In this document: piece by piece, positions 35,928 to 62,233 of the stretch
Layout of the letters: each line of letters starts with the position of its first letter
Numbering within the stretch: position 1 is the stretch's first letter
From: Dysidea avara
Taxonomy: Eukaryota; Porifera; Demospongiae; Dictyoceratida; Dysideidae
Reading direction: 5' to 3'
Length of the DNA stretch: 64,000 nucleotides
Assembly: GCF_963678975.1 (NCBI RefSeq)
Contig: NC_089279.1
Coordinates: 26,770,004 to 26,834,003, forward strand
Position numbers and translations under genes: made by a program
The notes under the pieces: model-generated
The model's input: only the letters and a program-made list of their open reading frames with translations
Database searches by the model: none
Told to the model about the DNA's origin: nothing

Positions 35928-36125
35928 CATTGATCGCCACTGAACAAGAGGTATATTAATTGATGCCAAGAAGGTGGTAGACAAGTGTACAAGAAGTCAC
36001 GGTATATATCTGCGCACTATTCAGGAATATTTGGCCTCACTAACATTGATAAAGTATCACCCACCACCCATCATGTACACTGACAAGTAAAACTGTTTGC
36101 CGATGGCATGACTACTGTGGCTATT
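35928..36125 (+). pseudogene. Relic of a lectin last exon
   Basis: DNA from ATCGCCACTG through GATGCCAAGAAGGTGGTAGA and CAGGAATATTTGGCCTCAC matches the middle of the last exon of the tandem lectin genes (compare 61937-62080). Frameshifts, a stop where the Trp of HWTGG is expected, and missing ends make it a fragment. It marks the left edge of the lectin cluster. Confidence 0.75.
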
Positions 36126-36599
36126 TACATGAACCTTGTACAGTAGCTTTTACACATTATAGCTTATGGGACAGTTCAAGGAGTTTTGCATGAACATACC
36201 ATAATGAACATGCCATGATGAACATGCCGTAATGAACATGCCATAATGAACATGCCATCATGAAGACTATGCTCAATCCCATTATATCAGGAGACTCAGG
36301 TGGCCAATGAAAAATTTTCTAGATGTACATAAGGTGTTCTAAAAGTGATACTTTCAGCCTCAGTGTGTAGATACACCAAATGAAACTCTAGGGGGTCTCA
36401 TGCTCCTCTAGGAAACTTTACTTTTGAGATGCTATTTGGAGGCTATGTAGGTGCTAGTTATCTGACAGTGTTCAGGCAATGTTAGATCAGACCAATTTTT
36501 CAAATTTTATGTATGTTTTTTTTTCATTTTAGTTAGAAAGTGGCAAGGCTCTTGCCTCACTTAATTGCTACTCTGATGCTCTTATATAATCATTGCACT

Positions 36600-36790
36600 T
36601 TATCACTACCCTGCCAGGGACCACTTACCAAAAGCTTAAGCCTGTACAGCAGAGAATAAAAACTTAACACTAAATCTATGTTAACTGAATGCAGAAAAAA
36701 TCCCAGACCAGGTGACTTGAACCACAGACAGTTTGCAGTCTAGCTACCTGATGAGCCACATGGGATCCAAGATTTCTTATATTACTATGC
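36600..36790 (-). repeat. tRNA-Cys-like SINE relic
   Basis: On the minus strand a tRNA-like head reads GTGGCTCATCAGGTAGCTAG (A box region), anticodon loop CTGCAAA (GCA) and GTGGTTCAAGTCAC (B box), followed by GGGATTTTTT. The body continues to about 36600. The acceptor stem pairs only partly, so it is a SINE rather than a tRNA gene. Confidence 0.55.
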
Positions 36791-36950
36791 CTGCAATGCT
36801 TAGCACATTCCATCTACCACACATTGCTAGCACTGCATGTATAGAAACCTTTAAAATACTAAACTAACAACTCCTACATGCACACCAACTCCCTAGTAAA
36901 ACCAAACAAAGTAACCATTGTTCAATTGTAGTGTATCTTTGACAGTCAAC

Positions 36951-39900
36951 ATGAAGTTACCAGTGGCTCTTCTTGTAGTAGTGCTGCTTAAATTGAGGTA
37001 AGGAATTTATTAGCAACTATGGTATAGTATTGTAACAAACAAACTTTACAATAAAGTCAAGCTACAAGAATAGATTCACAAGATGAAACTGTTAGCAAGG
37101 TATATGATTGTTATGTGTTTAATAGTAACACACCATGCCTCACTCTATTATAGCGTTCCACTACCACTACTCCTACTAAACAGTGTACTCGTGATAATGA
37201 CGCAGAAAGTGTTTACAATCCAGCTAATCCTTCAGTTATTTGGATATGTAAGAACACAACATGGACCCCATTTGAGTAAGTTAACCACCTACAAGAGTGA
37301 CTTTAACAAAACTTATACAGGTTGGTAGCATCAGCTGGGAAAACTAAGGAACAGAGTGCTACAAACTGTAAACAGATTAAAGAAGAATTGTCTACTACTG
37401 ACAAATGTGCCAACCAACGTACTGAAAGTGGTGTATACTGGGTACAGGATATACAGGTGTGTTGTGATAGTTACTAATCAAGAGTGAATACTATATATGT
37501 GAAACAGAAAGTGCATGAGTATAATGGCAAATCTTGGCCTGCGATTTGGCATTGATATTTCATAACCACTACTCAGAGGAAAACTAATATGATAAAACAT
37601 TATTATAGGCATTCAATGAGTCATCAGATATGATTTATATAGCAAAGAAATGCAACCAGATTTGAGATCAGTAACCTGGCTTCCACACACACAAAATTAA
37701 ACTCACATTTTAACCAGAAATATGAATGGATTGCTGGCCTAATACACTAACATAATATTATTCCACTCTATCTTTTCTTCACAACCAGTGAGTATAGTTC
37801 CTGTTCCAGACCTTGTGAAAGCAATGAGTGGAGGTTTGGCACTATTAAATGCCCATGCATAGCTTTAATATGTTGGAATGGTGTGTAGTGAGCTGTAAAG
37901 CCTTGAAGAGCTGGCCAATTCTGATTTCCTTCATTTGGGAGTGATTTTATTGCAAAGAGGGTTTATGGAGAGCCCAAATTGGATCTCTAAATTCCATTAG
38001 TTTTCTCACTTTGTTTTATAGACTACTGTACTATATTAAGCCCACCCAAAACAGTTTTGATATCAGAAACTTATACACTCACACAGTGATCATGATAGCT
38101 AATAAATAGATAAATAATTGGTACAAATTTTAGCTTTATGCACTGTGAAGTTACTACAACTGAAATGATAACCTGAAACTGCCATACGTATGCTAATAAA
38201 GGTTCATATGTCAAAGTCAGGTTTTGTCAAATTTGTTGATATTTGATTGATATTCATTGATTCATTGTTGACTTATTAATTTTTGGGACTAACCAATTTT
38301 GATAAAATTAATTTTACTGTTGTGAAGAGGCTGTCCTTTTTTGGAGACATAATACTAATGGTAGGGACCTCGGATCAGAAATTGTCCTTTACAAAGAGGT
38401 TTATGTGTTCTTTACATGCATGGAGGGTCCTTTAACAAACGTTCCACTATAGACCAATTATTTTCATGTCGCCTCTGATAATCTTTGCCAGAGGATGATG
38501 AAATCAATGTTCTGACTAATAGGGTGGAAATGTTAATTTCTGGCACTTGAAGCACAAAACAACAAGCAAATATCAACCATGCACGCTGTTAAATGGTGTC
38601 CATGTTACATATAACAAATGTTGGTAGGTAAGTAGAATTCTAAGGAATGAGAAAATAACAGGAACGAAATGTGAGAAGGGGGACCAACTGCAGAAAATGC
38701 TTGATAAAAGTCATCATGTCAATATATAAATGGATTTTCTCTGCAGCATTTCTGGATGCCTAGCCAGTATATACTGGCTAACTTGTTGACTGTCAGTAAC
38801 AGTGTGAACAGATATTTCCTTTTCTTAAAATATTTGGATCTTCTACATGTTTAAAGTTTCAGAGAAGTACCTTTCTGTGTATGTATATAGTTCATAATGT
38901 TCACCTGTTACTTCAGGGTAGAAGCCACATGATGGGGTATGCAGCAGTATGCCTGTTGAGCTGGATGCTATTAGAGTTCTGTCACTTTTTGCTTATTAAG
39001 TAAATGTTCAGAGTTATGTATAGCTAGGTGGTATAGTATCTACAATTCTTAGTAGTTGCTAACTCTGTAATTTATTGCTGAATTATAACTTAACTTTGTG
39101 ACATGACTCTGGATAAGTGATAAAGCTACACTGTAAAGCAACAAAATGTTCCAGGCGTACATGATGTAACTGTCAGCATGGTTATGTTAGCTGATTTTTG
39201 CTTTACAAATGTACAAAGACTGCAAATTAAAGAAGTTTTAATTACATGAGGGAGTAGGATAACTAACACATAAAATTGGAAAAAAGAACAGAGAAATAAT
39301 GACACTAGTAAATTGCTGTTATCAGACTTCTAATTTAGCTCTAAAAACACTATTGGTTTTGATCTATTCTCTCAAATTCTTGACTGTTTTATTGGAATAT
39401 TGCAGGGTGACTGCTCTATTAGAGTGCTTCAAATGTTTTATCAATGCTGCTAAGAAGCATTTTGGTGTAAAATCAATTCCATATAATTATTGACATGATG
39501 GTCTCTATAGAGGAATGACTGGATTTATAATTTAACCATTGGTTCCCATATTTTATTCTGTTCAACATAAGCCCTATGACTCTTAATACTTAATGTTTTT
39601 CTCAACAACTTTTCAGTACTACTGTAGTGACTGATATCAATGACATTACAAATAGAGTTATGAAAAATTTGAATATCAGTATGATTTTAACTATTATTAG
39701 CTACACTCACAACATTTTTTGTTTTCTTTACTACCTTGCTGGATAGCTACACCATTAGGTGCAGAAGTCAAAGATCATTGTATGTAGCTATGCATTTCTT
39801 AATGGTGCTTATAAGTTAACAGTCACTAGCTATATTGGATATATAACTAAAAATATTTCAAAAGTCAAAACTGTATAACAAAAAAAATTGGTAGCTATAG

Positions 39901-41201
39901 GAAACCAGTGTTTAAACTATCAGTACTTTGTTGAAGCCATTCCTTCATATTGGTAATACACACATACAACTACCATAATAGCACATCGTGTTATTTCATT
40001 TACAAGATTAAAAAAGACAGCTCTTGACTGGCTGTTTACTTTTATGATTTTAACTATATGTATACTTGATAAATGGAAGTTACATCACCCATGAATATTT
40101 CTGCTCCTACATCAAAAATTCTCCTACAGTAGAATCATTGAACAAGTCTGAAGTGATGTAGTAGTCACATACTTTTGTCAGTTGCTTCCAGTATTTTGGT
40201 GTTTGGCTTATTAATAAAATATCGCAGCCACCAATTATCACATGATACATGGTGGCTTGGTTCTACTGATGCAGGGTTCTGCGGTTCTCCTATATTTTTT
40301 TTTACAATAGGACCACTGATATGTACAGTCAACTTATAAGGTTTGAAAAACTGCGGGTTCCTGACTTAAAGTCACAAAATTTGTACAGCTATCTGATCAA
40401 TCATAGTATAACCTGATTCACACCTCACATTAATCTTCAGTTGGAGGTTACTCTCGAAATGAGGAAAAACTGGAACCCAAGTTTACTTTCTTAGATTTGG
40501 ATCAATATATGGTACAACCTCCCAATAAACATGCATTGTATGTCAATTCATCGCTAAGTCCATGTGTTTGAAAGACCATATGATGCACAAATTTACAAAA
40601 TTTTTCTTACCAAATCTTATTGAGTGCTCTTGATATATGGTATATTTTTCAGATCTACTGTGATATGAATACCAGTGGTGGGGGATGGACTCTTGTTTGG
40701 AAACACACTTACATGAAATACAAAACACTATACAAAAACATGTTCTACTACTCTAAATATTACCAATCGTGTGCCATGAATGATACTGAACAGGGATGGT
40801 GTAACATACCGAACAAAACTCGTTTCAACCCCACTGAACAAATGATAGTAGCATATCACAAAGGAACAATAGTTTATGCATATAAAGGTTATTTCAATCG
40901 CAACATCGATTACCACTGGACTGGAGCTATACTACTTGATGCTAAGATGGTAATAGATCAGTGTACAAGAAGTGACACTACAGGAGCAACACCAGCTCCA
41001 TCTGTACATACTACAGGAATTCTGGGCCTCAGCTTTGATAAAAAATCGCCCAGTAACCATTATGAGAATTGTGATACCTATCATGAAGGAACAACACTGA
41101 CAGCCCCTAAAGAATGCCGATGGCACAATTGCCGTCTTCCTTCCTCTATTTCTAGCAAACAAACAGACACTGATATGGCTGTGGCTATATTTGTCCGTTA
41201 G
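36951..41201 (+). CDS. Secreted fibrinogen/intelectin-like lectin 1 (five exons)
   Basis: Exons: 36951-36997, 37057-37099, 37154-37275, 37321-37456 and 40653-41201, all with GT-AG introns in phases 2, 0, 2, 0. They total 897 nt, or 298 residues. Exon 1 is a signal peptide (MKLPVALLVVVLLKL). Exon 3 carries a two-cysteine module (KQCTRDNDAE, VIWICKNTTWTPF). Exon 4 has NCKQIKEEL and ESGVYWVQDIQ. Exon 5 continues IYCDMNTSGGGWTLVWKHTY, the classic opening of fibrinogen-related and intelectin domains. Then come WCNIPNKTRFNPTEQMIVAY, YFNRNIDYHWTG, the Cys-rich KECRWHNCRLPSSISS and terminal VAIFVR. Seven cysteines lie in exon 5. A secreted carbohydrate-binding role is inferred from the family; ligand residues cannot be assigned here. 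The 3.2-kb intron 4 contains no recognised gene. Confidence 0.88.
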
Positions 41202-42211
41202 CTGTTTTTGTTGAGCTAGCAACTGCTGTTGATCTGTGTAAAAGTAACATTGAAATGTGTACAATGTAAAGTATATTGTGTGTTAAACATTTATTTAGGA
41301 TATAGTTGAATTTCAAACTTGGGTCTAGTTTGTACTGTACATCTCAATCAATGCAGTGACTATTCAAACTCCACTATCCAATGCTCAAAAATGATGCTTA
41401 AGCTCATACTTTTAAAATTGATTGTTTAGTGCAGCTATAGCTACTATTCAAGATACATAGTAAATACAGCTGCTGATTAAATAAATGACAGCTAGCTAAA
41501 TATTAGCCACAGACAAATTGAGCAGACATATGATTATTGTGTGCTGTACTCCATGATTCTGGCTATGTAACAAAGAGAAGAAACTGAACATTAGTTGAAA
41601 TTGCCACTTTACTTGCAAACAACTATATTGGTGATGTGTATAGCTCCATGTTCGCTTGGTAAGTAATATCTGAGAGGAGTAATCATGCAAACACGCAATA
41701 TCAATATTTTCTTTTATATATCGCACAGCAGTTGCCATTTGGCCACTTGTTATCATGCTACAGTTTGTTATCACATAGAATATAAGCACTATTTTTATGA
41801 TTACAATTTAATCTATATTGGTACATTTGGGGTCACCCAGAGGAAGGGGGGGAACTGGGGGATTTGCCCTACATGATGAGCAGCTGAAAAGTTTTTCTTA
41901 AATTTAGCAAACCAAAAATAATACGTTGATCAGTACTCAATTAAAACACTTATCACATAGTGGAAGGTCAGAGTTGAGCAATTCAAAGGTTAACACACAG
42001 ATACTGTATACAGGCACATGTTTGTACTGTATTAGTTCTCCAGCCACATGCTTGTCTGCAGTCAGAAATGGGTCCAGAGTTTTAAAATGGACGATTCCAC
42101 TCTTCCTTTGGAGCATGGTTTATTGTAGCTTCAGTCTAGCTACCTGATAGTAGTAATATATATAGTTCATAAAACAATGTACCATTGTTAACTCTTACCA
42201 CTAAGCCTTTA

Positions 42212-42448
42212 CACTGCTTGAAGGTTCTTAGTTTACTAATTTGTTAAGATGCCTTACTGTAGTTATACTGATAGTAAAGTGTCAGTAAACTTAAGTATAT
42301 GGAACATAATTATTTTACTAAGTTTTAAACTCTCAGTAAAACATCAGTGAATGCGGGTTTACTGAAAAATTACTAAAATAACAAACAATTAACTGTTCCA
42401 TATACTGGGGGTATACCACTGTAGTAAACTAAGATACTTCAAGCAGTG
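42212..42448. mobile_element. PIF/Harbinger-like MITE, copy 1
   Basis: The ends are CACTGCTTGAAGGTTCTTAG and, inverted, CACTGCTTGAAGTATCTTAG. The flanks are 3-bp TTA at 42209-42211 and 42449-42451. It is a non-coding 237-bp element that shares its interior with 53660-53910. It lies between lectin genes 1 and 2. Confidence 0.8.
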
Positions 42449-42539
42449 TTAGAAATGTACTGAAGCCCAAAACAATAATTATTTTAGAGGTGCTTATTAA
42501 TATGCATAAAGATCTAGTAGATATACATGATTTTGCAGT

Positions 42540-43020
42540 AAAGAAAGGTAAAATGACTGTATTGTCACTTAAGTCAACAGCATGACAATGTAATCTTTCA
42601 TTGCGGAATAGAAATTCAATAACCTATTAGAAACAGATCATAAACAAATACATGCAAAGACCACATTGCCATCCTAAAAAGTTTTAATAGTATTTATTTC
42701 ATTGCATATTTGGTAACAATTTCTTGACTTTCACAGGAAACTGCAAAAATGTTAACAGAGCTAGGCTACCCAAAGAAACAACCAACAACAAAGTGATACA
42801 CAATGTAGTTATGATCTCTATTTTTCTATTTATAGCGATCTGGACATAACCAAAATAATTCAATACCAAATACCCAATGATCCGTCCACTGTCCATTGAT
42901 CATGCTACATACCAGTGTGGGAGGCTCAATTGACTAAACAGCTGCTGCACAAATTCCACCCATTGGCCCATCGTATAGCCAAACAAAAGGACTAAATATT
43001 TTGGTAGTAGTAGTAGTAGT
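42540..43020 (+). promoter_or_regulatory. Conserved upstream block of lectin gene 2
   Basis: Segments match DNA upstream of lectin gene 4 and an orphan copy. TCTTTCATTGCGGAATAGAA (about 42594) recurs at about 56950, and CCATTGGCCCATC (about 42959) resembles CCAATGGCCCATC at about 58675 upstream of gene 4. It ends about 50 bp before the ATG and probably holds the promoter. No TATA box position can be fixed. Confidence 0.4.
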
Positions 43021-43047
43021 AGTATTTGAGTGCCTTTTCTTGTCAAC

Positions 43048-46000
43048 ATGAAGATAGCAGCTCTACTTATTGTAACAGTGCTGTTTACATCAAGGTACAT
43101 AAGAGCATTTAAAATTGTACATACTCAGTATAGTTTTACAATTAGCCAAACTACAGCATCAGATCCACAAGATGGACTAGTGTCAGCTGTCAGCAAGGTG
43201 AATATATACATTACTTGCATGTGGTATGCAGGAAGACAGAAGATTGCATATAGAATAGATTATTACGTATTTCTGTGTTTAGCGTTCCACTGTTCCTACA
43301 AAACATTGCACTAGTGAAAATGATGCAGAAAGCATTTACAATACAACTGATCCTTTAGTAATTTGGATATGCAAGAGCAAGATATGGTCCCCATTTGAGT
43401 AAGTTAACTAGCAAAAGAATTAAATTAAACAAAGCTTGTATGTACAGGTTGGTACCATCTGCAGGAAAAACTAAGGAACACAGTGCCACAAACTGTAAGG
43501 AAATTAAAGATTTGTTGTCTGCTACCAATTGTACCAGATCTCCTGAAAGTGGAGTGTACTGGGTACAGCATATGCAGGTGATTTATAAAATATAGACATT
43601 AGGGCCAAGAAATGTAGTGATTATAATTAATTAGATTGCACACTATCTATAGCTCTACAATTTCTTTAGCTATAGTGACCTCTTGTGGGCTACAGAATGA
43701 TTTCCATGTTATGTCAAGTCTCTGCTTCATGCTTGTTTTATTTGAGGACAAAAATAGGGACCCGCCGATTATGCTAGCATAATTATGAGCATAATAGGTG
43801 CCTGAAAGCATTAAGCATAATGCTAGCATAATAGGTAGAATATTTGTGTAATAGTATGAATTCTAGCTTATTAAAATAGTTTATCACAGAAAGATCGATA
43901 TACTCTAATAGAACAATCAGTAACTCTAATAGAACAATTAAATAGCTGACTGTTCTATTAGAGTATATCGATCTTTTCTGTGATATGCAGTAAGTTAGTG
44001 TTTCAGCCACTTATCATTTATCCATAAACTGAAAATTATTAGCAGAGCATGAGAACTGAGGCATAAATAATTGAGCATAATTTGAGCATAATAGGTAAGT
44101 ATTGAGCATAAATTTGAGCATATAATAGGTAAATTTTTGAGCAGTGCAGCATAGCATAATAGGTAAAATTATGAGCATAATCGGCGGGTCCCTAGACAAA
44201 AAGAATGTAGGAATGTGTCTTAAACTAGCCAAGAGTAGTATGATGGGGTTTATCGAGGCTACAAATATAGAGAACTGAACATCCACAAGAAAACATTGGA
44301 TTTACAAACCATAATATAGAAACTGTTCTAACCTTCCCTGAAGTGGTACAAATGTAAGTAAGATTTATCATGCCTTCATTTCTCGTTTTATTTGAGGACA
44401 GAAATGCATGGCAGCCTATGGTGCTAACAAACATTTTGATTGATTTTATTGAAACAACCTATACAAAAAATGAAACAGAAACTCGTGGCAACATAGAAAC
44501 CATGCATGCCCAAGGTGCAAGCCATCTTGTATAGATTGGAAACCTAAAATGAAAGCTACCATAAATAAGTTTCCTTGTTTCCCATCAACTTAAGAACAAT
44601 CAGGCAATGAACGTGGTCAGCTACACCCCATGCCATAATATTATTATTTGGTGATCCTTCAAAACGACAATGCACTGTCCACTAGTTTCAAACAACAGAC
44701 TAGCTACAGTGGATGTTTTGATTTTAAGCATTTCATAAGTGTAGCTAACAGAAAGCAACAAAGCACTTTCCCAGACATGAAGTAGCATAGTAACACTTTT
44801 CATAGAAGTTTGGATCCTAAAAATGCCTCCCAGTAAATACAGTGGCTTTGAGTTCTATACTAGTGGCTGACTGCTCTATTAGAGTACCTCAATCTGTAAT
44901 GCAAACTAAAGACAAAGTTGTATACAGGCAGGTGGCACTGTGGCAGGAAACAAGGAATTAATAAACGTGACCGGGCCTACAAAAATAGGGCATGTGGACA
45001 CAAACTACACCCCATCACATAACATGTCATATCTCAGTATTGGGATAGAATATTTTCATTCTGTAACTTGTATTGTAAAGCCAACTGCATGGTGAATAAG
45101 TGCTCAAAATTTCACGGCTACAGAGTCATGGAATACAACGTTATGACACATCAAAGTTTGAAAAAGTAGGCAATTTTAATGTGCCCACATCAGGCCACAT
45201 GCCCTATTATCGCAAGCCCAATCACAAATGTTACCTATAATTGTGAGAATTCAATAATTATTTTTCATTTTACCAGCAAATACACTACTTGTATGAAAGA
45301 TACAGTACAGATGTTGCTAGCTGCAGTACTTGATGTTAAATAAGTGTTCCTGTCAGCACTGAACAAACTTTTACTATATCCACAGAGTTACTAGGGAATA
45401 AAGTTGCACAAATTTTAGTTCTTGAGCACTCTAGTATTAAAACGACACGACAACAGAATGGACTCGGTGTAATATATCCTGAAGAAGCCTTCACACAATG
45501 AGAACTATGGTTTAGTGTGAAAATAAGCCACCATATATGCTACATATTATGACATGTCCCTACAAAAACACAGGTTACTGACTCACCATGCAGGTAGTGT
45601 AGGATAACATGACAACACCATGCTTGTGCACTTCATTTACCACCAACGCATTTCTTATACAGATCTACTGTGACATGACAATTGATGGTGGAGGATGGAC
45701 TCTTGTTTGGCAACACACTTACATGAAGTACAATCCACTTTATACTAACATGTTCTACTACTCTGACTACAATCAACCTTGTGTCAAGGATGCTAGTCAT
45801 CAGGAATGGTGCAATGTACCTAACAAAACTCGTTTCAACCCCACTGAACAAATGATGGTAGCATATCACAAAGGAACAATAGTTTTTGCATATAAAGGTT
45901 ATTTCAATCGCAATATTGATTACCACTGGACAGGAGGTATACTACTTGATCCTAAGAAGGTAGTAGACAAGTGTACAAGAAGTAATGGAGTTCCACCAGC

Positions 46001-46205
46001 ACCATCTGTGCAAGTCTCAGGAATATTTGGCCTCAACTTTGATAAAGCATCACCTACCAACCATTATCTCAACTGTAATACATATATGACAGGATCTACA
46101 CTGACAAGTCAAAACGATTGTCGGTTTCGTGACTGTGGCCTCCCATCTTTTATTTCCAGCAGAGCACAAGACACTGACATGACCATGGCTATATTTGTCC
46201 GTTGA
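43048..46205 (+). CDS. Secreted fibrinogen/intelectin-like lectin 2 (five exons)
   Basis: Exons: 43048-43094, 43146-43197, 43283-43398, 43448-43577 and 45663-46205, with the same phases as gene 1. They total 888 nt, or 295 residues. Signal peptide MKIAALLIVTVLFTS. The module reads CTSENDAESIYN and VIWICKSKIWSPF. Exon 4 has NCKEIKDLL and ESGVYWVQHMQ. Exon 5 opens IYCDMTIDGGGWTLVWQHTY and runs through WCNVPNKTRFNPTEQMMVAY and YFNRNIDYHWTGG to terminal MAIFVR. Intron 4 (2.1 kb) contains an hAT-type element at 43755-44194. Exon 5 is closest to that of gene 4. All splice sites are canonical and no frame defect is seen, so the gene is likely active. Confidence 0.88.
43755..44194. mobile_element. 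hAT-type MITE (GCATAAT-rich family) in lectin 2 intron
   Basis: The ends are TAGGGACCCGCCGATTATGC and, inverted, TAGGGACCCGCCGATTATGC (identical). Exact 8-bp duplications GACAAAAA lie at 43747-43754 and 44195-44202. The interior has GAGCATAATAGGT repeats and a central palindrome made of two inverted copies of the GATATACTCTAATAGAACA word (43892-43975). Confidence 0.93.
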
Positions 46206-47222: not shown

Positions 47223-47400
47223 CAAACATCCAATATAACTGAAGCTAATGTTCCATCAGTTATCTGGATATGTAAGAGTAAGGAACAGAGTGCTACAAAT
47301 TGTAAACAAATTTAAAAAGAATTGTCTACTACTAACAACTGTGCCAGCTGACCTCCTGAAAGTGGTGTATACTGGGTACAGGATATGCAAGTGTGTTGTC
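47223..47400 (+). pseudogene. Lectin relic, exons 3 and 4 fused
   Basis: The end of exon 3 (VPSVIWICKSK) runs directly into exon 4 (KEQSATNCKQI, stop, KELSTTNNCAS, stop, PPESGVYWVQDMQ). The intron and both exon edges are deleted, not spliced cleanly. Following DNA (to about 48060) matches intron 4 of lectin gene 1 (about 37457-38590). So this is a genomic duplicate that decayed, not a retrocopy. Confidence 0.8.
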
Positions 47401-48545: not shown

Positions 48546-49344
48546 ATGAAGTTACAAATAGTTGTGTTGCTTGTTGTGACAGTGCTCTTCAAAATAAGGC
48601 ATTTGATAAAGCAGTAGTAATGACATCTTTTAATAAAGCCAAGCTACAAGCTCAGATCAACAAGATGCACTGCTATCAACTGTAAGCATGGTGTGTGTAG
48701 TGAGACAAAATAGCTATTTAGCAGTATTTTGACAATATAATGTATGTTTCCAGGGGCGGATCCAGAGTTCGGAAAGGAGGGGTGCACTTTGCTGAAAATT
48801 TGAAGAGCAAAAAAAAAGTCACAGCAATAATGGCTACCCTTTACCAAATGTATTTACTATAGACTATATAAAGATCCTTATTCAGATCCTTATTCACAGC
48901 TTCGTAGTTAAGCTACACTGCCTCATGAACACTGTGACCGCTTTATTAGAGTGACTGCTCTATTAGAGTATCTCGATCTTGTATGCAATTTTTTTTGAAA
49001 GATGTGAAGGAAAGGGGGGGGGGCACGTGCCCCCCCCGCCCCCCTCTGGATCCGCCACCGGTTTCAGTCACCATGATAGCATTCCACTACTCCCACTAAA
49101 CAGTGCACTAGTGATAATGAAGCAGAAAGTGTTTACAGTCAATTGGACATGTAAGAGTACAACATGGACCCCATTTGAGTAAGGTTAACCTTAAAGAGTG
49201 ACTTTAACTAAACTTATACAGGTTGTCACCATCCACTGGGAAAACTAAGGAACTTATAGTGCTACAAACTGTTAACAAAATTAAAGAAGCATTGTCTACT
49301 GATTGTACCAGTCCTCCTGAAAGTGGAGTATACAGGATATGCAG
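48546..49344 (+). pseudogene. Broken lectin paralog (exons 1-4)
   Basis: Exons 1 (48546-48598, MKLQIVVLLVVTVLFKI), 2 (48639-48690), 3 (49080-49178) and 4 (49222-49344) are collinear with the intact lectins. Intron 1 has a GC donor (AATAAG|GCATTT). Exon 3 lost about 20 nt between VYN and the Trp of VIWICK, shifting the frame to a stop. Exon 4 has a 2-nt insertion after KEL and lost eight nucleotides at GVYW. An hAT5-like MITE sits in intron 2 and a larger hAT lies just after exon 4. No last exon follows before gene 4. Confidence 0.85.
48751..49060. mobile_element. hAT5-like MITE (GGCGGATCCAG family)
   Basis: The ends are CAGGGGCGGATCCAGAG and, inverted, CGGTGGCGGATCCAGAG. 5-bp flanks GTTTC lie at 48746-48750 and 49061-49065. 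It contains GAGTGACTGCTCTATTAGAG and a long G-run facing a C-run near the right end. It lies in intron 2 of the broken lectin. Confidence 0.87.
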
Positions 49345-51830: not shown

Positions 51831-52440
51831 TTATATTTACTGGTGTGAATGAATTAAACCAAGCACCTGAAGCAATAGCAACGGACATTATGACTTGACC
51901 AGGTCTCTCCATTAGAAACCTTTGAAAAGTTGGATTTAAATGATTTGAACACACCCACATCCAATGATTGTAAAATGTGTGTTGTATGACCTGGCAAGCA
52001 TAGTAAATATATGTTGTTTTCACAAGCTAATTCAATCAAATTAATTGAAATATGAGAACCATTGAAGTAACAATACTGGCCTTGCAGGTAGGATGTTGTT
52101 TAGAAAGACTATGGACCATTGCAAATATATATCACTATTGATCCACCTATTTTTACTGTGTGTTGGATACACAATCATCCTTTAGGGAGTCTGGCACTTT
52201 TTGTTTTCGTGGATATACAATCATGGGAGACAGGACTTTACCAGCAGCCGATACACATGACAACACTGTGTCTGTGTCTTTCCCTTTTCAGCTGAAGTGA
52301 CAGAATACACATGACGTTGGCCTAATTGAGCCAACACCTTCCCCTACCTGTGCACAACACTGATACCAGTTTCATCAGCATTAAATAATTGTATTAGCTT
52401 GTTAGTTAAATTAAACCTGCCCACCAAGCTTTGCAAATAA
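51790..52440 (-). pseudogene. Pogo/Tigger-type DDE transposase relic
   Basis: Minus-strand pieces in order: ADETGISVVHR (first catalytic Asp region, about 52375-52340), AAGKVLSPMIVYPRKQKVPD, YFNGSHISINLIELACEN, LLCLPGHTTHILQSLDVGVF (the second conserved block, with the downstream acidic position region), and PVNIMSGFKKYGIG. Several stops and shifts intervene. Terminal repeats were not found. The family call is from the conserved LP.HT..LQ.LDVGVF motif. Confidence 0.7.
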
Positions 52441-53030
52441 ATTTGATATTGCTAGTAGCAGACACAGCTCTGGCGAAATGAAGGGGCTGTGGGGCAGTGG
52501 CTAAAATAACTTCTTTTTTTTACAACTAGCTGAACTTAGATGGTGGGAAGGTGGGGAGGGTACACGTGTATTTGAAGTAAGTATTCTTGTGCTGTATATT
52601 GCCATGATTGTTCAAACAGTTAAAATAAAGAGAGGGCTTAGTGCCAGTAAAGAGGAAAACTGTAAGGGTTTCTGACTAACTATAGTGGGATCTGGAGAAT
52701 AAAGCTACTCGCCCAGGGAAAATTTTGAAACATAAGTGTGCCAAGGTTGAATTTGGAGACAATTTGGGACATGATTGAAATTTTGTAGAAAATAGCAAGT
52801 TGAGTGACAAAATTTGAAAACAAGAACATAAGAAATATGTACATGCAAGCCTCATTTTATTGGATTTTAAGGAAATAGTGAACTGTAAGAAAGAAATTTG
52901 TTAACCAGATTGTAAGGCAATTTTTAAGCAAAGAGAAGACCAGAAAATGGAAAATTTTTGAAAATAGCTATCTCACGATTGGATCCTGAGGTACTAGTCA
53001 AATACTAGTAGAAAAGTTAAGATGCACAAC
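52441..53030. other. Non-coding stretch
   Basis: No supported feature. Confidence 0.3.
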
Positions 53031-53034
53031 ATGC

Positions 53035-53430
53035 TTTAAATGGCTTTGTAAAGAAGGATATCATCTGCAAAATTATTGTCAGATCTCACTTTCGATGTTA
53101 GTAGCTAATGATGTCATTGATATAAATTAAGAAAACAACTGGTCCAACACTAGATCTCACATTGCAAACCCAACAGATGAGCACAATAATAATGTAATCA
53201 GAGAGAAGTAGAAAGTTGTCTTTAATTTAATCATCATTGACTAGGGCAGTGAATTTCATGAGGGTTAAGATTAGGATTCAGTTATGACAGACAGAATGGT
53301 AAAGCATTGGGAGTGCCCACAAGTAATTGAATTTAATGGGGGTGTTAACATTACTGAAGTCTTGACAAAGCCATGAACTATCTTATGAAACAATATGAGT
53401 TTCAAGGACGTTCTTCATTCACGTGTTGGC
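53035..53430 (-). pseudogene. Degenerate LINE RT relic
   Basis: On the minus strand GPVVFLIYINDII (about 53135-53095) is followed after shifts by NNFADDILLYKA (about 53080-53045). These are the adjacent RT motifs around the catalytic Asp pair, as in the other LINEs here. No other parts are clear. Confidence 0.55.
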
Positions 53431-53659
53431 CAGTTGAGTTGCTGGTATAAAGTTCAAGTACTTGTCATTATGTACTTAAGTCATATACTAAACGTATGCA
53501 ATATTACAAAAAAGTGTTTTCATGGCTAAAATTACTCATTATATACCATACAACATAATGTTATACAACACAATCTAATTCATCATGGCTTCCATTTGTA
53601 CGTACGAGTCTAGCATTAGTGTCTCCAGGCATATGATATGGGATCATGCCAGCAAATAC

Positions 53660-53910
53660 CACTGCTTGAAGGTTCTTAGTTTACTAATTTGTTAAGCTGC
53701 TTTACTGTAGTTGTATCCAGTTATATTGATAGTAAAATATCAGTAACTTTAAGTATATGGAACATAAAATTAATTAATTGATTTACTAAATTTTAAAGTA
53801 AAACATTGGTGAATACGGGTTTACTGAAAAACTACTAAAATACCAAACAATCAACTGTTCCATATACTGGGGATATACCACTCTAGTAAAATAAGAAACT
53901 TCAAGCAATG
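53660..53910. mobile_element. PIF/Harbinger-like MITE, copy 2
   Basis: The ends are CACTGCTTGAAGGTTCTTAG and, inverted, CATTGCTTGAAGTTTCTTAT. 3-bp TAC flanks lie at 53657-53659 and 53911-53913. The interior matches 42212-42448, for example TAAGTATATGGAACATAA and AACTGTTCCATATACTGGGG. Confidence 0.8.
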
Positions 53911-53913
53911 TAC

Positions 53914-54771
53914 TACCAACTTCCTGGCCTTCTGCTGCAATCTGGTCTTGTGCTAGTAGTTTGATATAAACTTATTGTTATATAATATAACAGTGGAAAT
54001 TCATTTATCTGGGACTATGTGGTGTTGGGATAAGTGATAAGTAGCTAATTTGCTCAACAACATTATGTACACAAGCAGCTAGTCACTTAAAATGAGCTAG
54101 TGTACATTACCATTCTTTTACTGGTTTATTTTTTCTTGTGGTTAATAGCAGGAGACCATAAGTACCACAAGATGCAAATTTGCACCTTGTGGCATTTATG
54201 GCTCATGTTAATGGTGCACAGCTAAAATGAGATTCCACTGTCTGACAAATTAGCATACAGATACAATAAGACCCTCGATTATCCAAACAGTAAAAGTGAC
54301 TGCTTTATTAGAGTATTTCATCATTAGGTGAATGTTCCATCATAGATAATATACCCCCGTTCCATTAGAGTAAGTGTATGTTCTATTAGGGTTTACTTTT
54401 ATGATTTAACTGGTGCACAAGTGTCAAATAATAGAGGTCCTACTGTTGCCAATACTGCCATAATATTTTTCAATGTGACATTACAAAACCGACAGACTTA
54501 TAATTTTAAGCAAAACCACAATACTTACCAGACAATAATCAAGGCTTACAACATTAAAAAATTAATATCACAAAAGTTGTGGCATTAGATTGTGTCATAT
54601 TAGAATCTTTGGGACTGCTCATTTCTCCTCAATTCCCAATTACATTCATAGTATACAAAAACTCTCCATATTATGATGTCTACACCACACACACATGCAC
54701 ACACACTTTTATTATGCTACACACCAACCATAACACCATGAAGGCAATACTATACAGCATAGGTCACTTAC
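53914..54771. other. Non-coding stretch
   Basis: No gene. It includes one dispersed GACTGCTTTATTAGAGTATT word at about 54299-54318. Confidence 0.3.
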
Positions 54772-54871
54772 TCTAGACACTCCACCATCATCTCCAGTAG
54801 CTAGTATGACTTGTGCAGTACGTGCACTACAACAAGCAACAATATTATTAACATCAAAGGATGACTTGTCT
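54772..54871 (-). CDS. Isolated exon, possibly WD40-like
   Basis: Acceptor (ATTAGAGAG) and donor (AGA|GTAAGT) bound about 100 nt reading DKSSFDVNNIVACC, then VILATGDDGGVSR. The ...ILATGDD.G.V.. wording is typical of a WD40 strand, but one short exon is weak evidence. It lies 22 bp beyond the NUP93-like relic. That is too close to be spliced to the preceding piece, but it might instead be a diverged terminal part of the same gene. Confidence 0.35.
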
Positions 54872-54893
54872 CTCTAATAAACATCAGCAATAC

Positions 54894-55718
54894 CTTAGTT
54901 CAGCATATTATTGAGAATGCAGAATACTGATTGTAGCTAGTAAGACATCAGGAAAACTTCTACAGACCTGGAAACACAACCACAACACTCAATGTAAAGA
55001 TTATTTTTGTACGATTTTAAACCAAGACATGCAGTCATACAAAAACAGTACACACGTTTATTAACATCATCATCATAATTTCTAAATGATGCCAATTTTA
55101 AGTCAACAGTTTCATCATTTAGTGGTAGCAAGTTCAGTTATGTGATGACCTGAAATGGAGTATAAAATCTAGCTATAATTATATATATAAATGTAATTCT
55201 AAGGGTTTAACACTTTCATACAGAATCTTCTGCAAACTATTATGCAGCTATTTGAGATTCACGTATGCTGTCCTTTGGGTAATACATAAGATGTGCATAC
55301 AAGGGAGACATACATCCAGAGCCACTTCTAGTTGTCCAGCATGATACTGATCAAAGAACTGCATGAGATCCAGTATTAGAGTGAATGTGTAGATAGTGTG
55401 TTGACTGGCATTAGTATCAGTGATACGATATCTGTATTGGAATAAACACTCACAATTAAAAGTTACTATGTAAAACTTGTGTACCTTTTTTTTGGTGGAT
55501 GAGAGAGTCCATAGGTGCCTACGTTTAGACTGTGCAGTGTTAACTGCGGAAACAACCTTTAACAGTACCAAACACACTTCATAAGTTGATACATACAAAA
55601 GTATGCATATGTACATATACACATGCGTACATGTATCCATGCACTCACTCTCTCTCACACTGCACGCACATGCAAGCACGCATGCACACAACCTTCACAT
55701 AAATACACACTCACTACA

Positions 55719-55754
<36 letters not shown>

Positions 55755-56578
55755 GCACACACACACAAACACACATGCATACGTACACACACAAATCTGA
55801 CATAGCAGTTGTGATAGTATTTCCATTACTTTTTCCATGATCTTATCAATCACTCTGATAATCAATCCTCCCAATACAGTACACATACCTTAGTTTGCAA
55901 GTGTATGGCATCCTCATAGCAACCTTGTTTCTCTGTGTCCTTAGCAATCTCATTGATTATTACAGATGTGTCCACACCAAACTTGTCTATTTAATCCGGC
56001 CTCCTACTACCATCTGGCTCCATCCTTCCCAATAGCATCTCAAACTATACCAATGGCATTCACATATAGCCTATATCTAGTCTACCAACACATAAACCTA
56101 TACACTAAACTACCTCAAAATGACACATTGAATCTAATGTGCTGTGATAACAAAGACATATGTCTGTAGTACCAGCAGTTTCAAAAATACAGTAAAAAAT
56201 TGGCTGCTTCTGAGACAAAACACTCTTTTAGTTCATGTAATACCACATAACTGTATTTGGGGACACACTGGACCTGACCACTATAAACTATAACTTATTT
56301 GAAATCAGGATACTCTCCAGTACTAAGTCACTAACAGAGGTAGTGAACAAGTCTCTATCATTATAGCTCCAGTAATACCACTACAATAGGAATATATGCA
56401 CATTACATAAACCACAATTAAATGTATAACACAACAAAGCAGTGATATATCCATGAACAAGTAATAGTATATTGGATGGCTTCTCGAGGGTCAGTCAGAG
56501 TGAATTTGCTGACATAGGTATGCACAATACAAGCAAAGTTTAGTTGTTGTATTTTTCCAGGACCATCATTATGTGTAA
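54894..56578 (-). pseudogene. NUP93-like nucleoporin pseudogene (C-terminal exons)
   Basis: Minus-strand exon-like pieces follow the order of the NUP93/Nic96 C-terminal region. 56578-56469: HNDGPGKIQQLNFACIVHTY, LTDPREAIQY. 56380-56314: YYWSYNDRDLFTTSVSDLVL. 56044-55889: FEMLLGRMEPDGSRRPD, stop, IDKFGVDTSVIINEIAKDTE. 55576-55485: VVSAVNTAQSKRRHLW. 55431-55314: TFTLILDLMQFFDQYHAGQL. 55147 to about 55070: stop, then LNLLPLNDETVDLKLASFRN. 54967-54894: FPDVLLATISILHSQ, then stop. In-frame TAAs at 55991-55993, 55138-55140 and 54908-54910, together with weak donors, argue for a pseudogene. NUP93 is a scaffold subunit of the nuclear pore inner ring. No intact N-terminal part is in the window. Confidence 0.75.
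55717..55793. repeat. (CA)n microsatellite
   Basis: An interrupted CA run within the NUP93-like relic, between exon-like pieces. Apparent long frames across it are low-complexity. Confidence 0.95.
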
Positions 56579-56929
56579 CTGTGAGGAAAGAAAGGTAGTA
56601 ATATCCTATAAAGATAGTAATATCCTATAAAGGTAGTAATATCCTATAACGTTATAAGCACCATGCACGAAGCCCTCAAGCACAAACATCAGTTGAATTT
56701 CCTTGTTTGGGGCATATAAGAAACAGATAGCTGAAGAATCCCTACATATGAACATATTTTCAGGCTTCTAGATTTCTATTTAGTGCTATGTACATCAAAA
56801 TACAGTGCAGTTACAACACATGTTACAAATCTATAGCTTACTATAGTAGCAACTCACTAGAGTGTGGCAAGACTGACTGAGTGACACTGAGTAGCCTATA
56901 GCTCCAAGTCATGTAGTGTAATGGCAAAG

Positions 56930-57220
56930 TGGACAGTATGACAATGCAATCTTTCATTGCGGAATAGAAATTCAATAGCCTTTTAGAAACAGATCATAAA
57001 CAGCTATATATCGACACCCCATCACATTTTCTTAATCTGCAATGGGATAGCAACTACCATCCCATAGAGCATTTGGATGGCCATCACAGGGACTAGACAG
57101 GTTGCTGAAGTGCATAATTACTAACATCATTCAATACCTAACACCTCATGTTCCATCCATTATTCATTGCTTACACTTCATATCACACATACCGCTCAAT
57201 GACCTATCCTAAAAACTAAA
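56930..57220 (+). repeat. Orphan copy of lectin upstream DNA
   Basis: 56937-57004 (GACAATGCAATCTTTCATTG... GAAACAGATCATAAAC) matches 42581-42655 upstream of lectin 2. 57128-57210 (CAATACCTAACACCTCATG, TTCATTGCTTACACTTCATA, CAATGACCTATCCTAAA) matches 58565-58690 upstream of lectin 4. No lectin exon follows, so it is either the remains of another paralog or a duplicated promoter region. Confidence 0.6.
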
Positions 57221-57940
57221 ATCAAACAAGAGATATGCCTTGGTTAAACACCATGGCTACTACTATTAGCCTAGTGACAAAATTTAATGTGGCTACTATA
57301 CAAGGGTGGTCACTAATCGAGGGCAGCTCTTAAGTATGACAATTATTCGGTAAAAGGAAGAGCCAATAACTTTAGTATATTTTAGCACAAAGAAAACAGC
57401 AGATGAAAAGTATGACTTCCTGTCACACGATGCAGAAAAATAGTATTCTTTCCTTACTACCGAATAACACTGCTGAATAGTCTACTTTCTAACGCCCAAT
57501 AATAACTCATTAAATCAAGGACTGCAAATTCTAATAATAACCACAGCAAGGGTGGTATTTACGTATATTCTATCTTTAAGTGAACAGTACAGCAATTATT
57601 CAAATGCGGTGACTACACTGTATTAAAGGTGCAGTGTTTACCAAGGAGATACAGTACATACTGTTTGGGTAGTTGGAAAATGTGGTCATAGACACAGAGT
57701 CATGGAGTCTTATATTTGCGTCAACACAATTGAAGTCTTGTTATAGTTGGTCTAAATAGGGTATAGTCTCAGCCATATCAGCCAGCAAAAAGCTACCCAA
57801 TCAACACTATAGTTTAGGATATGCAATACATACCTCATGTAGTTAGTATGAGATTGTAGTTGCTACAATAGCATTTAGAGTACAAATTTTCAGCATGGTT
57901 ATTAGTATCTTGGGGTTAAACTTGTGGCCATATCAGTAAA
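57221..57940. other. Non-coding stretch
   Basis: No supported gene between the orphan upstream block and the zinc-knuckle relic. Confidence 0.3.
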
Positions 57941-58270
57941 ATGTCATATTTGTGCAACACTAAATGGCCATGCCCTTACTGTGAGGCTAAGAACCACTAT
58001 CCAGACAACTGCCCCCATTTGTCTTTTGTGACAGCTCTAGACTACCAAATCACCCAAATCACAGAACATGCAGTTACAATACGCAGTGGTTATAACAATG
58101 GACAGTGCACCAGATTAATGCATATACGTTTCAACACATCTGCCTCACATGCAAGGGTTTTATCCTTGCATCTCCTGTCTTGACAAGAAACAGGCCACCC
58201 AAAACCAGTGAGGCCATTTTCAGGCCACGACGACCATGAGTGCAACCAACCCAGAACTAACAGGGCACAG
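57941..58270 (+). pseudogene. Zinc-knuckle relic, possibly retroelement gag
   Basis: The frame from 57941 contains CPYCEAKNHYPDNC, an exact C-x2-C-x4-H-x4-C zinc knuckle. Just downstream, in shifting frames, HICLTC and SGHDDHECNQP may be remains of further Cys/His knuckles. This is the pattern in gag-like proteins of BEL/Pao and similar LTR retrotransposons. No protease, RT or LTR was found, so the class is inference. Confidence 0.45.
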
Positions 58271-58549
58271 TGAAGCTGCTTGGCCAGGTAAGATTTACCA
58301 TGATGCAAAGTCTCAGCCTATAATCACCCCTGGGTAAGAACTTGCATGCACTCTAGATATTTACTTCCATATGTAGCATGTGTAGAATGTAGCTGCCATA
58401 TTAGAATTCCAGAGTACAACTAGTAGGGCAGTTATGAGGGTTGACTGTTATTTCAGTCAAGTACATGGCCATGACAGTCCTCCCAAGTCTCTTACTTTCT
58501 TTCCATTTACCCATAATGTACATGTATAGTAATATAATGTTCACATGGT

Positions 58550-58758
58550 CCAGTATCTAGTGCACAACTAATACCCAACACCTCATGGTCATTCACTATT
58601 CATTGCTTACACTACATACCAGTCTTCAGTGCCTCAATCAACTAAACTGAATACACCTACACACATACCACACCCAATGGCCCATCCTAAACCAAAACTA
58701 TATAGTTCTATTGTATTGCAGAAATTCTTTAGTCTCTTTAGTGGTCAACATCATTAAC
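58550..58758 (+). promoter_or_regulatory. Conserved upstream block of lectin gene 4
   Basis: Shares ACCCAACACCTCATG, ATTCATTGCTTACAC and CCCAATGGCCCATCCTAAA with DNA at 57110-57220, and ACTACATACCAGT and CAATTGACTAAAC-like words with 42880-42970. It is positioned directly upstream of the signal-peptide exon in genes 2 and 4, as expected for a shared promoter region. Confidence 0.4.
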
Positions 58759-61700
58759 ATGCAGTTAACAGTAGTTCTTCTTGTTGTAGCAGTGATGCTT
58801 GAATTAAGGTAAAAAGTTGGAACAATGAAAACAATTGTAATTAATGTCATATACCTAAAGCCAAGCTACAGCACCACGTCCTAAAGACAGACTACCATCA
58901 ACTGTCAGCAAGGTACATTTATTGAATTATAGCTATACCAAGATGCATATATATATATATCAAATTAAAAGGAACAATTCTTTACAGCGTTCCACCACTC
59001 CTACTAAACAATGTGCTAGTGATAATGAAGCAGAAATTGTTTACAATCCAGCTAATCCTTTAGTCATTTGGATATGTAAGAATACAACATGGACTCCATT
59101 TGAGTAAGTTAACTATGCAAGAATGGCCTTAATAAAACTTATACAGGTTACTGTCATCTACTGGTAAAACTAAGGAACTTAGTGCTGTAAACTGTCAACA
59201 GATTAAAGAAGCATTGCCAGTATCTGCTGATACATGTGCTCCTGAAAGTGGAGTGTACTGGGTAAAGGGTATGAAGGTGTGTGACTTGTAAATATGCATA
59301 GTTATCAATATTTAAGAATTCATATAGCCTCATTAAACCCTAATATAAACACATCATGAAAGTTAGGATTTTAAGTTCAAATAGGGATCATAGAAATGAA
59401 AAGTAATGAAACATGTCACCTATATCTGCATCTACACTAGTGAATTGAAGGTAGCATTGAAGTAATAATGTGTAACATGAAGCCTTACAACTTGGTATAG
59501 ATACTTTGATACGTAGAGATAACTGGAAGCACACAAAAGATGCTACACATGAGATGCGCTATTCCCGATCAGCATATGTATGTACGACAAAGCATATGGT
59601 GATCTTGGTACAACCTACAACTGTACCAGTACTAAAAAATATGATATGCATTCATGATGAAAGACAAAAGATGTCTTATATACTAAGCCAATTCTCAGCA
59701 CAGTAAGCATACCTCAAGGAAGAGCCTACTATCAAGTTCACAGACTCACCTACCTGACTCAGCTAGAACAATCTAGTGGAAGTAGCGAGTATTTTTTCAC
59801 ACACGCAGTGCTGTACCTCACATACTATATAGCTAGTCTGTAATTAGGCTTGCAGCACTTATGAGCTTCTCTTTACAATGACGAAATCAGATAGCTGTCA
59901 AAGTACATAGCCCATAGAAACCACAATTTTGTAAACAAAGCCTGGCAGCTTAATAATATGTCTCCCCACAACTTTTTTGGCGAGTATTTTTGGCAAAAAA
60001 CATGAAGAGCATTTACCTAAACAGTAGTGCTACACAATTTACATACACCATGAAACCTTCAAATAATGCTTTGTAGACTGGTCTGGGTGGGAATAGCATA
60101 GCACACAGGGTTTTAGTGTTTTCCTTTTGAATGCATCATCAAATCCTTCATTCTACTGTTTGCGCAATGTCAAAGCATCTTAAGAAAGAAACCTTTAATA
60201 GTAACAAATTTTGTTTTCACTCAGAGAAACCTGTCATGTTATTGCAGAGGTGCAAAACCAGCTTATAACCAGTGATGCTTACTAGTTTCCGATCCCGGGG
60301 AGTATAATCTATGACACTATACTATACAGAGGTGGATCCAGCGTTCTCTGAGGTGGGACTCCCCCTAAAGTTCACATATGTGATTCAGTATGGTTCTACC
60401 CACACTGGTCGGCAATGGCTCAAAGACCAGTACCTCTAAAAACTTACCAGTACCTTCTTAAATCTGACCAATACAATTCATACATACATCATTGATGCAC
60501 ATATTATTCTGATGTATCATTCTAATACAACACATGGCATATCGGTTCATGTTAACTTTGGGACACCACTCAGGAATTCCTGGACAGAATCCTGTCTACA
60601 GACCTTCAGCACTTGTGCTGCAAAGCTTTAATAAATAAATTAACTAAAAATACAGCTGTGGCATTCCCATACATAAAAAGTGCCCTTAGACAATTTTAAC
60701 AAGCATGTGTAACCTAATTGATCTACAATGCTATTTGTACAGCATATTAGGCTATCATAGATCTAGCTCACCCCTCTCTTAACAAACTCACTAAATTGAC
60801 ACAATAAAGAGCTCTACGCCCTACCTGACCTTCTCCATATACTTATAATGTATATTGTATATTTTTAATTATTAAGGTTTTACAGCACAAGTGCTGAAGG
60901 TCTGTAGGACACCTGGTCCTACAGCCTGTTTAAAGTTGTAACTTTTTTGAAACATAATTCATAATAAGTGACCTCTATAATACCACATCAAAGGAAAGAC
61001 CTGCAAATACATATGAGACTATAATTGTACCGCAAAACACAAAAGCAATGTAGCTGTTTTGCATAGTTTTACACAGCCCTCCCTATACACACAGAACAAT
61101 TCATAAACACAGCCAATCATTTACTGTACTTAAACCACAGGTAGTGTCATACAAAAAAAATGATGAATGATATCAATTTTATTCTTGCTTGAAAGAAAAC
61201 ACTAGTCATTAACATGCTACACCTTGGGCTGTCAGTAAAACGCAAGGAACACAAAGGAGGACAAGAATAAATCCATGATGTGTGTATTGTACATACAGTA
61301 TGGTAAGGGCACCATCTGGCTGAAGCGATGCAACCTAACAGTGAAAAAATCAAGTCCATAGTCTTAGCTATTAATGAGTTACACTTGTCTGAAGGTACTA
61401 ATATGTCAGTACATATGTCAGTCAGTATAAAATAATAACTTATTGGAAGCATTTCAGATCATGCTGAGGGAAATTTTGGGCTTGGGTTATATTTACGTAA
61501 CCAATACTGCCAAGGAGCCATGATGGGTCATATTCGGGTCAGTGGGTCATGGGTCATTGATGTTGACCAACTTTACCCTGATTCATATATGAACTTTTGG
61601 CCAACACATTTTGCCTTAGCAAGCCATAAAAATGAACTGTACTTGTTTTCTTCATGTACTACCAACTACACATTTCCACAGATTTACTGTGATATGACAA

Positions 61701-62233
61701 TTGATGGTGGAGGATGGACCCTTGTTTGGAAACACACTTACATGAAATACAAAACACTGAATGAAAAGATGTTCTACTACTCTGACTACAATCAACCTTG
61801 TGTCAAAAACGCTAGCTATGAAGAATGGTGTAATGTACCAAACAAAGCTCGTTTCAACCCCACTGAACAAATGATAGTAGCATATCACAAAGGAACAATA
61901 GTTTATGCGTATAAAGGATATTTTAATTGCAACATTGATCGCCACTGGACTGGAGGTATATTACTTGATGCCAAGAAGGTGATAGATCAGTGTAAAAGGA
62001 GTAGTCTTAATGGAGTTCCACCAGCACCGTCTATACACCACCATTCAGGAATATTTGGTCTCACATTTGACAAAGCATCACCCACCAACCATTATCTTGA
62101 TTGTGATACATATCATCAAGGATCTACACTGACAACCCCAAAAGATTGTCGATGGCTCAATTGTGATCTCCCTTCTTCTATTTCCAGCAGGGTACATTAC
62201 ACTGATATGACCATAGCTATATTTGTCCGCTAA
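58759..62233 (+). CDS. Secreted fibrinogen/intelectin-like lectin 4 (five exons)
   Basis: Exons: 58759-58808, 58861-58912, 58988-59103, 59147-59276 and 61682-62233, with phases 2, 0, 2, 0. They total 900 nt, or 299 residues. Signal peptide MQLTVVLLVVAVMLEL. Exon 2 reads SQATAPRPKDRLPSTVSK. The module reads QCASDNEAEIVYNPANP and VIWICKNTTWTPF. Exon 4 has NCQQIKEALP and APESGVYWVKGMK. Exon 5 opens IYCDMTIDGGGWTLVWKHTY and ends MTIAIFVR. Differences include NCNIDRHWTG where genes 1 and 2 have NRNIDYHWTG, adding one Cys. An ATG at 61520 upstream of exon 5 is in frame but lies in intron sequence before the TTTCCACAG acceptor, so it is not used here. Intron 4 carries SINE tails. Confidence 0.88.
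60545..60651 (+). repeat. SINE tail
   Basis: CTGTCTACAGACCTTCAGCA then CTTGTGCTGCAAAGCTTTAA followed by TAAATAAA matches the 3' part of the SINE at 33405-33600. It lies in intron 4 of lectin gene 4. Confidence 0.6.
60870..60950 (-). repeat. SINE tail, inverted
   Basis: TTTACAGCACAAGTGCTGAA followed by GGTCTGTAGGACACCTGGTC matches 33428-33470, same orientation as that minus-strand SINE. The tRNA-like head is missing. Confidence 0.65.

Follow-up and report, generated by a model that had tools for sequence, protein, structure and literature searches.

It is an open question how a diverse set of recognition proteins is produced in animals that have no antibodies, and it is raised by a gene cluster in the sponge Dysidea avara. 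The window analyzed here is a 64,000-nucleotide stretch of contig C8 (NC_089279.1, positions 26,770,004 to 26,834,003; C8:26770004-26834003). An original prediction, made from the letters alone, had described in this window a same-strand cluster of secreted lectin-like genes with the opening motif of fibrinogen/intelectin domains, and had proposed this gene-birth-and-death cluster as a candidate innate-immune or self/non-self repertoire. The explanation that best accounts for the data, and that we consider probable though well short of certain, is that the cluster belongs to a large tandem family of small, probably secreted lectin-like proteins with a GGGWT, intelectin-like domain, and that these proteins are diversifying at their binding site.

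Three complete five-exon genes, A, B and D, had been predicted, and all three were recovered when the models were rebuilt by splicing. Every junction is GT-AG, the cumulative intron phases are 2-0-2-0 in each gene, and the spliced products, not counting the stop, are 298 (A), 295 (B) and 299 (D) residues long. On inspection by eye, the N-terminus of all three products looks hydrophobic. Genes A, B and D, together with a broken copy (copy C) and two relics, all lie on the plus strand. The exons of the splice models, with the part of gene B on which much of the argument turns, are as follows.

36951..36997, plus strand: gene A exon 1, with the start codon, signal-peptide-like; GT donor, phase 2
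37057..37099, plus strand: gene A exon 2
37154..37275, plus strand: gene A exon 3
37321..37456, plus strand: gene A exon 4, first part of the GGGWT domain
40653..41201, plus strand: gene A exon 5, with the main domain and the stop codon
43048..43094, plus strand: gene B exon 1
43146..43197, plus strand: gene B exon 2
43283..43398, plus strand: gene B exon 3
43448..43577, plus strand: gene B exon 4
45663..46205, plus strand: gene B exon 5, which served as a genome search query
45951..46202, plus strand: fast-evolving C-terminal part of gene B exon 5, codons 97-180, from windowed dN/dS and site models
58759..58808, plus strand: gene D exon 1
58861..58912, plus strand: gene D exon 2
58988..59103, plus strand: gene D exon 3
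59147..59276, plus strand: gene D exon 4
61682..62233, plus strand: gene D exon 5

The family extends well beyond the window. A search of the 550.8 Mb assembly (108 contigs) returned at least 70 matches to exon 5 of gene B and at least 72 to exon 5 of one copy from contig C11. Among the 72 matches to the C11 query, at least 46 are near-full-length copies, made up of 38 that are uninterrupted (15 on C11, 13 on C8, six on C3 and four on C10), seven with stops and one with a frameshift; the remaining 26 matches are partial, some being pieces of one copy. These counts support the predicted birth-and-death cluster. The window copies are part of a single-strand array on C8 that runs from 26.52 to 26.86 Mb, and the C8 copies form one clade (tree of 13 rows, support 100/99). 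Exons 3, 4 and 5 follow one another on one strand in 36 of the 37 copies examined, and because this exon order recurs in other copies across the genome, a chance origin of the gene models is excluded. With borders placed by script, 33 of the 36 ordered copies have GT-AG borders at introns 3 and 4 alike, and three do not. Models of exons 1 and 2 were accepted for 15 of these 36 copies, low-scoring script models being set aside; the 15 comprise genes A, B and D, three further copies on C8 and nine on C11, the last of which have an exon-1 start of their own in common. Two near-alike copies lie 100 kb apart on C8, at 27.584 and 27.685 Mb. They agree at 528 of the 543 bases of exon 5, each has inverted relics 2-4 kb downstream, and they reflect either a segmental duplication or an assembly duplicate. 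A long AGC repeat upstream of exon 3 replaces the usual intron 2 sequence in C11 copy 7420 (L027).

Exon 5 is split into a conserved stretch of about 96 codons and a final stretch of about 80 codons that carries the fast-evolving sites. When nine C11 copies were compared in windows of 20 codons, those up to codon 100 gave a nonsynonymous divergence (dN) of 0.00-0.02 and a synonymous divergence (dS) of 0.02-0.13, and those beyond codon 100 gave 0.11-0.23 and 0.21-0.43, respectively; for 13 C8 copies, dN was 0.05-0.12 up to the same point and 0.19-0.33 beyond it. Site models (M1a versus M2a, in our own codon implementation with F3x4 and IQ-TREE trees) were fitted to the whole of exon 5. Twice the log-likelihood difference (2dlnL) was 92.6 for the nine C11 copies, with a dN/dS ratio (omega) of 8.3 at 6% of sites, and 54.3 for 13 intact C8 copies, including genes A, B and D, with an omega of 6.0 at 3.5% of sites. 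Null simulations reached maxima of 5.16 (20 runs) and 6.54 (12 runs), and the first 96 codons alone gave 0.10 (C11) and 0.02 (C8). On whole-exon trees, nine sites in C11 and eight in C8 had P>0.9, seven of the C8 sites being in shared columns. Five selected columns coincide between the two groups among 174 shared columns (p 2e-6; p 1.8e-4 within the 71 C-terminal columns), and two further pairs are neighbors. The coinciding columns correspond to codons 106, 136, 142, 151 and 159 of gene B exon 5, which vary among Gly, Trp, Lys, Arg, His, Tyr and others. These data support diversifying selection at defined exon-5 positions, as would fit a recognition repertoire. In this comparison among paralogous copies, C-terminal sites stand well above a dN/dS of 1 in both C8 and C11. 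A retroelement-style or adenine-targeted diversification was also considered and is unsupported, with the third positions of variable codons using all four bases, much as they do elsewhere in the exon.

Divergence along the C11 genes follows a similar border. Among 11 C11 copies, the median difference is 26.6% in the 300 bp upstream of exon 3 (where two copies are unalignable), 4.2% in exon 3, 2.2% in intron 3, 3.9% in exon 4, 6.7% in intron 4, 2.8% in the first part of exon 5, 17.7% in its last part and 38.3% downstream. All 55 pairs differ less in intron 3 than in the upstream sequence, and 54 of them also differ less in intron 4; a Sawyer-type permutation test gave p 0.0005 for nine of the 11 copies, the two with unalignable upstream sequence having been dropped. 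The core of the C11 genes, introns 3 and 4 included, is homogenized, and its flanks are diverged. In nine copies of the C8 array (26.5-26.86 Mb), 35 of 36 pairs differ less in the first part of exon 5 than in its last part, and 34 of 36 differ less in intron 3 than in the upstream sequence. The sharp border in C11 between a homogenized core and a diverging end offers a natural case in which to test how a gene is divided between conversion and selection.

The domain assignment first proposed has to be revised. The original prediction had placed exon 5 with the fibrinogen domains, an assignment that profile searches did not support: the spliced products of A, B and D scored 18.4, 16.6 and 15.8 bits against Pfam Fibrinogen_C (PF00147), below the gathering cut-off of 22 bits, and the exon-5 frames alone scored 19.1, 16.3 and 16.8 bits. 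The Fibrinogen_C similarity is confined to 20-40 residues around GGGWT. NCBIfam GGGWT_bact (NF040941), with a cut-off of 30 bits, was passed by all three (37.1, 35.7 and 31.8 bits). A profile of 18 exon-5 proteins matched fibrinogen-type chains in the PDB mainly at residues 1-17 (best E 0.015), with weaker matches extending to position 57, and phmmer and hmmsearch runs of exon 5 against the PDB matched essentially only the GGGWT end. In hhalign comparisons, where templates of two sequences each make the probabilities rough, the family together with three bacterial domains aligned with intelectins at a probability of 94.5 (E 1.6e-8, 193 columns, many gaps) and with two ficolin-type fibrinogen-related domains (FReDs) at 4.6, in the wrong register. 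The bacterial domains alone gave 85.5 against intelectins (144 columns) and 69.5 against the two FReDs (163 columns), FReD against intelectin gave 77 over 32 columns, and the bacterial domains against the family gave 100. By these profile alignments, intelectin is the best match among solved structures. Beyond its GGGWT start the domain appears to differ from the fibrinogen domain; it is found in bacteria and is weakly intelectin-like.

An alternative is that the genes encode canonical fibrinogen-related immune proteins of the FREP or ficolin type. The common start NC...SGVY...YCDM..GGGWT would be explained in this way, as would the alignment of the bacterial relatives alone with the FReDs, and true Fibrinogen_C matches above the cut-off number at least 150 in this genome (150 of 496 candidates scored), which makes up another, canonical FReD expansion. 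Given the Pfam scores, the restriction of the best PDB profile matches to the first 17 residues and the out-of-register alignment of the family with FReDs, we regard this alternative as extremely improbable. Annotation by Fibrinogen_C at its cut-off overlooks genes A, B and D, and probably the family. Fibrinogen_C genes of D. avara are reported to be regulated by microbial molecules, upward in some cases and downward in others (PMC6208332); window-type genes, which fall below the cut-off, may have been left uncounted among them.

A search of bacterial and archaeal genomes yielded six loci. Three of them, from Myxococcota metagenome-assembled genomes, are 40-44% identical over the full length of exon 5; in a BLASTP comparison, gene B and L055 agree at 79 of 179 residues (44%). 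Of the other three, one matches at 29% identity and two match only the start of exon 5, and no relative was found in viral contigs. Across the prokaryote genomes, viral contigs and PDB chains searched, the Myxococcota proteins are the nearest full-length relatives found, and closer animal relatives may well exist. L057:1483-3519 weakly resembles the N-terminus of the mosaic adhesive trimer fibers of Bdellovibrio (16.2 bits against a cut-off of 60). All seven exon-5 cysteines of gene B are aligned in the three Myxococcota proteins (L055, L056 and L057), and four bacterial relatives score 62.8-74.4 bits against NF040941. The three proteins are 679-1168 residues long, with the domain at the C-terminus and one full-length copy per genome; the full-length domain (E <= 1e-15) is rare, occurring in two of 52 genomes of the class of G003, those behind L055 and L057. 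The domain is preceded by MopE and TSP3 repeats in L055 and by MopE repeats in L056, and L057 has a P_proprotein match instead. The adhesin-like setting in L055 and L056 could be taken to indicate that the sponge genes encode non-immune secreted proteins, acting in mucus, matrix, adhesion or prey capture and diversified for dose or substrate. This seems quite improbable to us, since selection that is concentrated on few positions suggests specific, changing partners.

Two of the selected positions can be placed relative to conserved cysteines: site 142 is four residues past Cys138, and site 159 is one past Cys158. The acetyl pocket S1 of FIBCD1 comprises Tyr405, His415, Tyr431, Trp443 and Ala432, and Tyr405 and His415 are four and one residues past the bridged Cys401 and Cys414, as described in the consulted portion of PMC3908420. 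Cysteine spacing points to these two pocket positions, both variable in the family, and leaves the other three unplaced. A weak hhalign alignment puts site 142 in the CNTEHHC loop of intelectins. A correspondence between the selected sites and FReD pocket residues is suggestive only.

Several results weigh against a diversifying, intelectin-like repertoire. In addition to the low probability and wrong register of the FReD alignment, the link to FReD pocket residues is based on cysteine spacing. The optimizer was rough and the site-model values are soft, another fit of the same whole-exon tests having given 88.6 (C11) and 36.8 (C8). When the C-terminal part was analyzed on its own tree, the last 80 codons of C11 gave a 2dlnL of 44.5 (p 2e-10), and the signal in the last 84 codons of C8 was weaker (12.1, p 2.4e-3); only five sites in C11 and three in C8 then had P>0.9, with one coinciding column (codon 159, found in both analyses) and one neighboring pair. 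The window's own array is more diverged than C11 and its split is weaker. Intron 4 of the C8 array has a median difference of 54% and is below the upstream sequence in only five of 15 pairs, and for that reason a homogenized core is not claimed for this array. Pooled dN/dS for exons 3 and 4 is 0.34 (14 C8 copies) and 0.68 (12 C11 copies), which is no strong constraint, so firm purifying selection can be claimed for the opening half of exon 5 but not for these two exons. Site-model tests can be inflated by gene conversion, and recombination was absent from the simulated nulls. The last point, together with the smaller number of sites and the single coinciding column on the C-terminal trees and the rise in C11 dS across the exon, would be expected from a statistical artifact in which conversion and saturated synonymous sites mimic an excess of replacements and the C-terminal part is merely relaxed. 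We judge such an artifact distinctly unlikely: residues between the selected codons remain conserved, two groups that are only about 60% identical have five selected columns in common on whole-exon trees, and the C-terminal part is still significant in both groups on its own tree.

A repertoire of lectin-like proteins could operate as follows. Each protein begins with a hydrophobic stretch, which is followed by a short linker with cysteines (exon 3) and then by a single domain (exons 4-5). Purifying selection holds the first half of exon 5 constant, and in C11 gene conversion would homogenize the gene from exon 3 to the middle of exon 5, introns included. Within the last ~80 residues, a few positions that presumably lie in surface loops are under strong diversifying selection and would most likely form the ligand pocket. 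Because these positions are read as a pocket, each copy would be predicted to bind a target of its own, with microbial or symbiont glycans as the likeliest ligands. What the data establish are the gene structures, the clusters, the division of exon 5 into constant and variable parts and the signal of selection, whereas secretion, fold, pocket, ligand and any immune role are inferred. The recognition repertoire of the original prediction is supported as far as clustering and diversifying selection are concerned, and is unsupported in the form stated with respect to the fibrinogen domain. The variable residues could instead mark individuals or species rather than microbes. Tandem arrays under diversifying selection, as found here, are equally typical of allorecognition and fertilization proteins. 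A role in self/non-self or gamete recognition is nevertheless unlikely in our estimate, as many paralogs with a partly constant scaffold suit a repertoire better than one polymorphic marker.

A more far-reaching version of the repertoire model, which we put forward only tentatively and do not expect to hold in full, is that an early-branching animal has a germline constant/variable repertoire within one exon, with a scaffold, introns included, that conversion keeps near-identical and a C-terminal cassette in each copy that is shielded from conversion and driven to differ, and with a domain shared with Myxococcota, possibly by transfer between kingdoms. Candidate recognition positions can be named codon by codon in two groups of copies, within proteins small enough to be readily produced and assayed.

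The remaining copies in the window are degenerate, as predicted.

48546..49344, plus strand: broken copy C, exons 1-4 only, with in-frame stops and without exon 5
48750..49061, plus strand: insertion in intron 2 of copy C, 312 bp, with 18-nt inverted ends that are 89% complementary
35926..36106, plus strand: exon-5 relic, a fragment match
47274..47390, plus strand: exon-4 relic, a fragment match

Exons 1-4 of copy C are recognizable, although the donor behind exon 1 is GC, exon 3 is shortened and there are in-frame stops. Between copy C and 61682, exon 5 had no match at E < 0.5. By eye, an apparent tail of exon 3 lies directly before the exon-4 relic. Intron 4 of gene B holds an insertion at 43755-44194 with perfect 21-nt inverted ends and an internal 31-nt hairpin. 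Elsewhere in the window, at 1279-3117 and 20337-21308, there are weak minus-strand matches to MULE transposase and SWIM domains as well as a reverse transcriptase fragment, all below Pfam cut-offs. Open frames in series on the plus strand at 30923-32928, one with a weak DUF7630 match below the cut-off, are possibly exons of a membrane protein gene. Rfam gave no match in the window at the gathering threshold.

Among the titles and beginnings of abstracts listed in literature searches, none described this family in a sponge, which is no proof of absence. By hhalign, vertebrate intelectins (X-type lectins, PDB 4wmq and 4wmo) can be aligned, roughly and with many gaps, along the whole domain, at SCKEIK, GGGWTLV, VPNK, the GCNT loop and the final R; the sponge proteins are far shorter and have no long inserts behind GGGWT. 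The E-H of the intelectin CNTEHH loop, which we take to be calcium/ligand residues, aligns weakly with a Tyr (in most copies) and a hypervariable residue in the family. Ficolin, FIBCD1, tachylectin-5A and snail FREPs have the opening motif in common with the family, which differs in the middle of the domain and fails Fibrinogen_C. Snail FREPs are expanded and diversified, and their architecture includes immunoglobulin superfamily (IgSF) domains; unlike them, the window family proteins have no IgSF domain that could be seen. The exon-5 domain of the Myxococcota GGGWT proteins L055, L056 and L057 is the same, but there it is the C-terminal part of long bacterial proteins.

A parallel comes from placozoans, compared here by description only. 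In the consulted parts of the reports, Trichoplax H2 has 31 mostly clustered intelectin-like genes (PMC6321704), and some placozoan intelectin-like genes are expressed in secretory epithelial cells (PMC12013895). These clustered genes likewise encode short proteins with a single domain, and a signal peptide is present in most; their fibrinogen-related domain is hard to detect, they are classed as intelectins and a defense role is supposed, and the same parts of the two reports mention no constant/variable split or selection (PMC6321704, PMC12013895). At the level of evolutionary pattern, sea urchin SpTransformer and coral tachylectin-2 are likewise diversified innate recognition families, the coral lectin being reported, in the portion of the literature consulted, to be under positive selection. 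These proteins are presumably unrelated to the window family.

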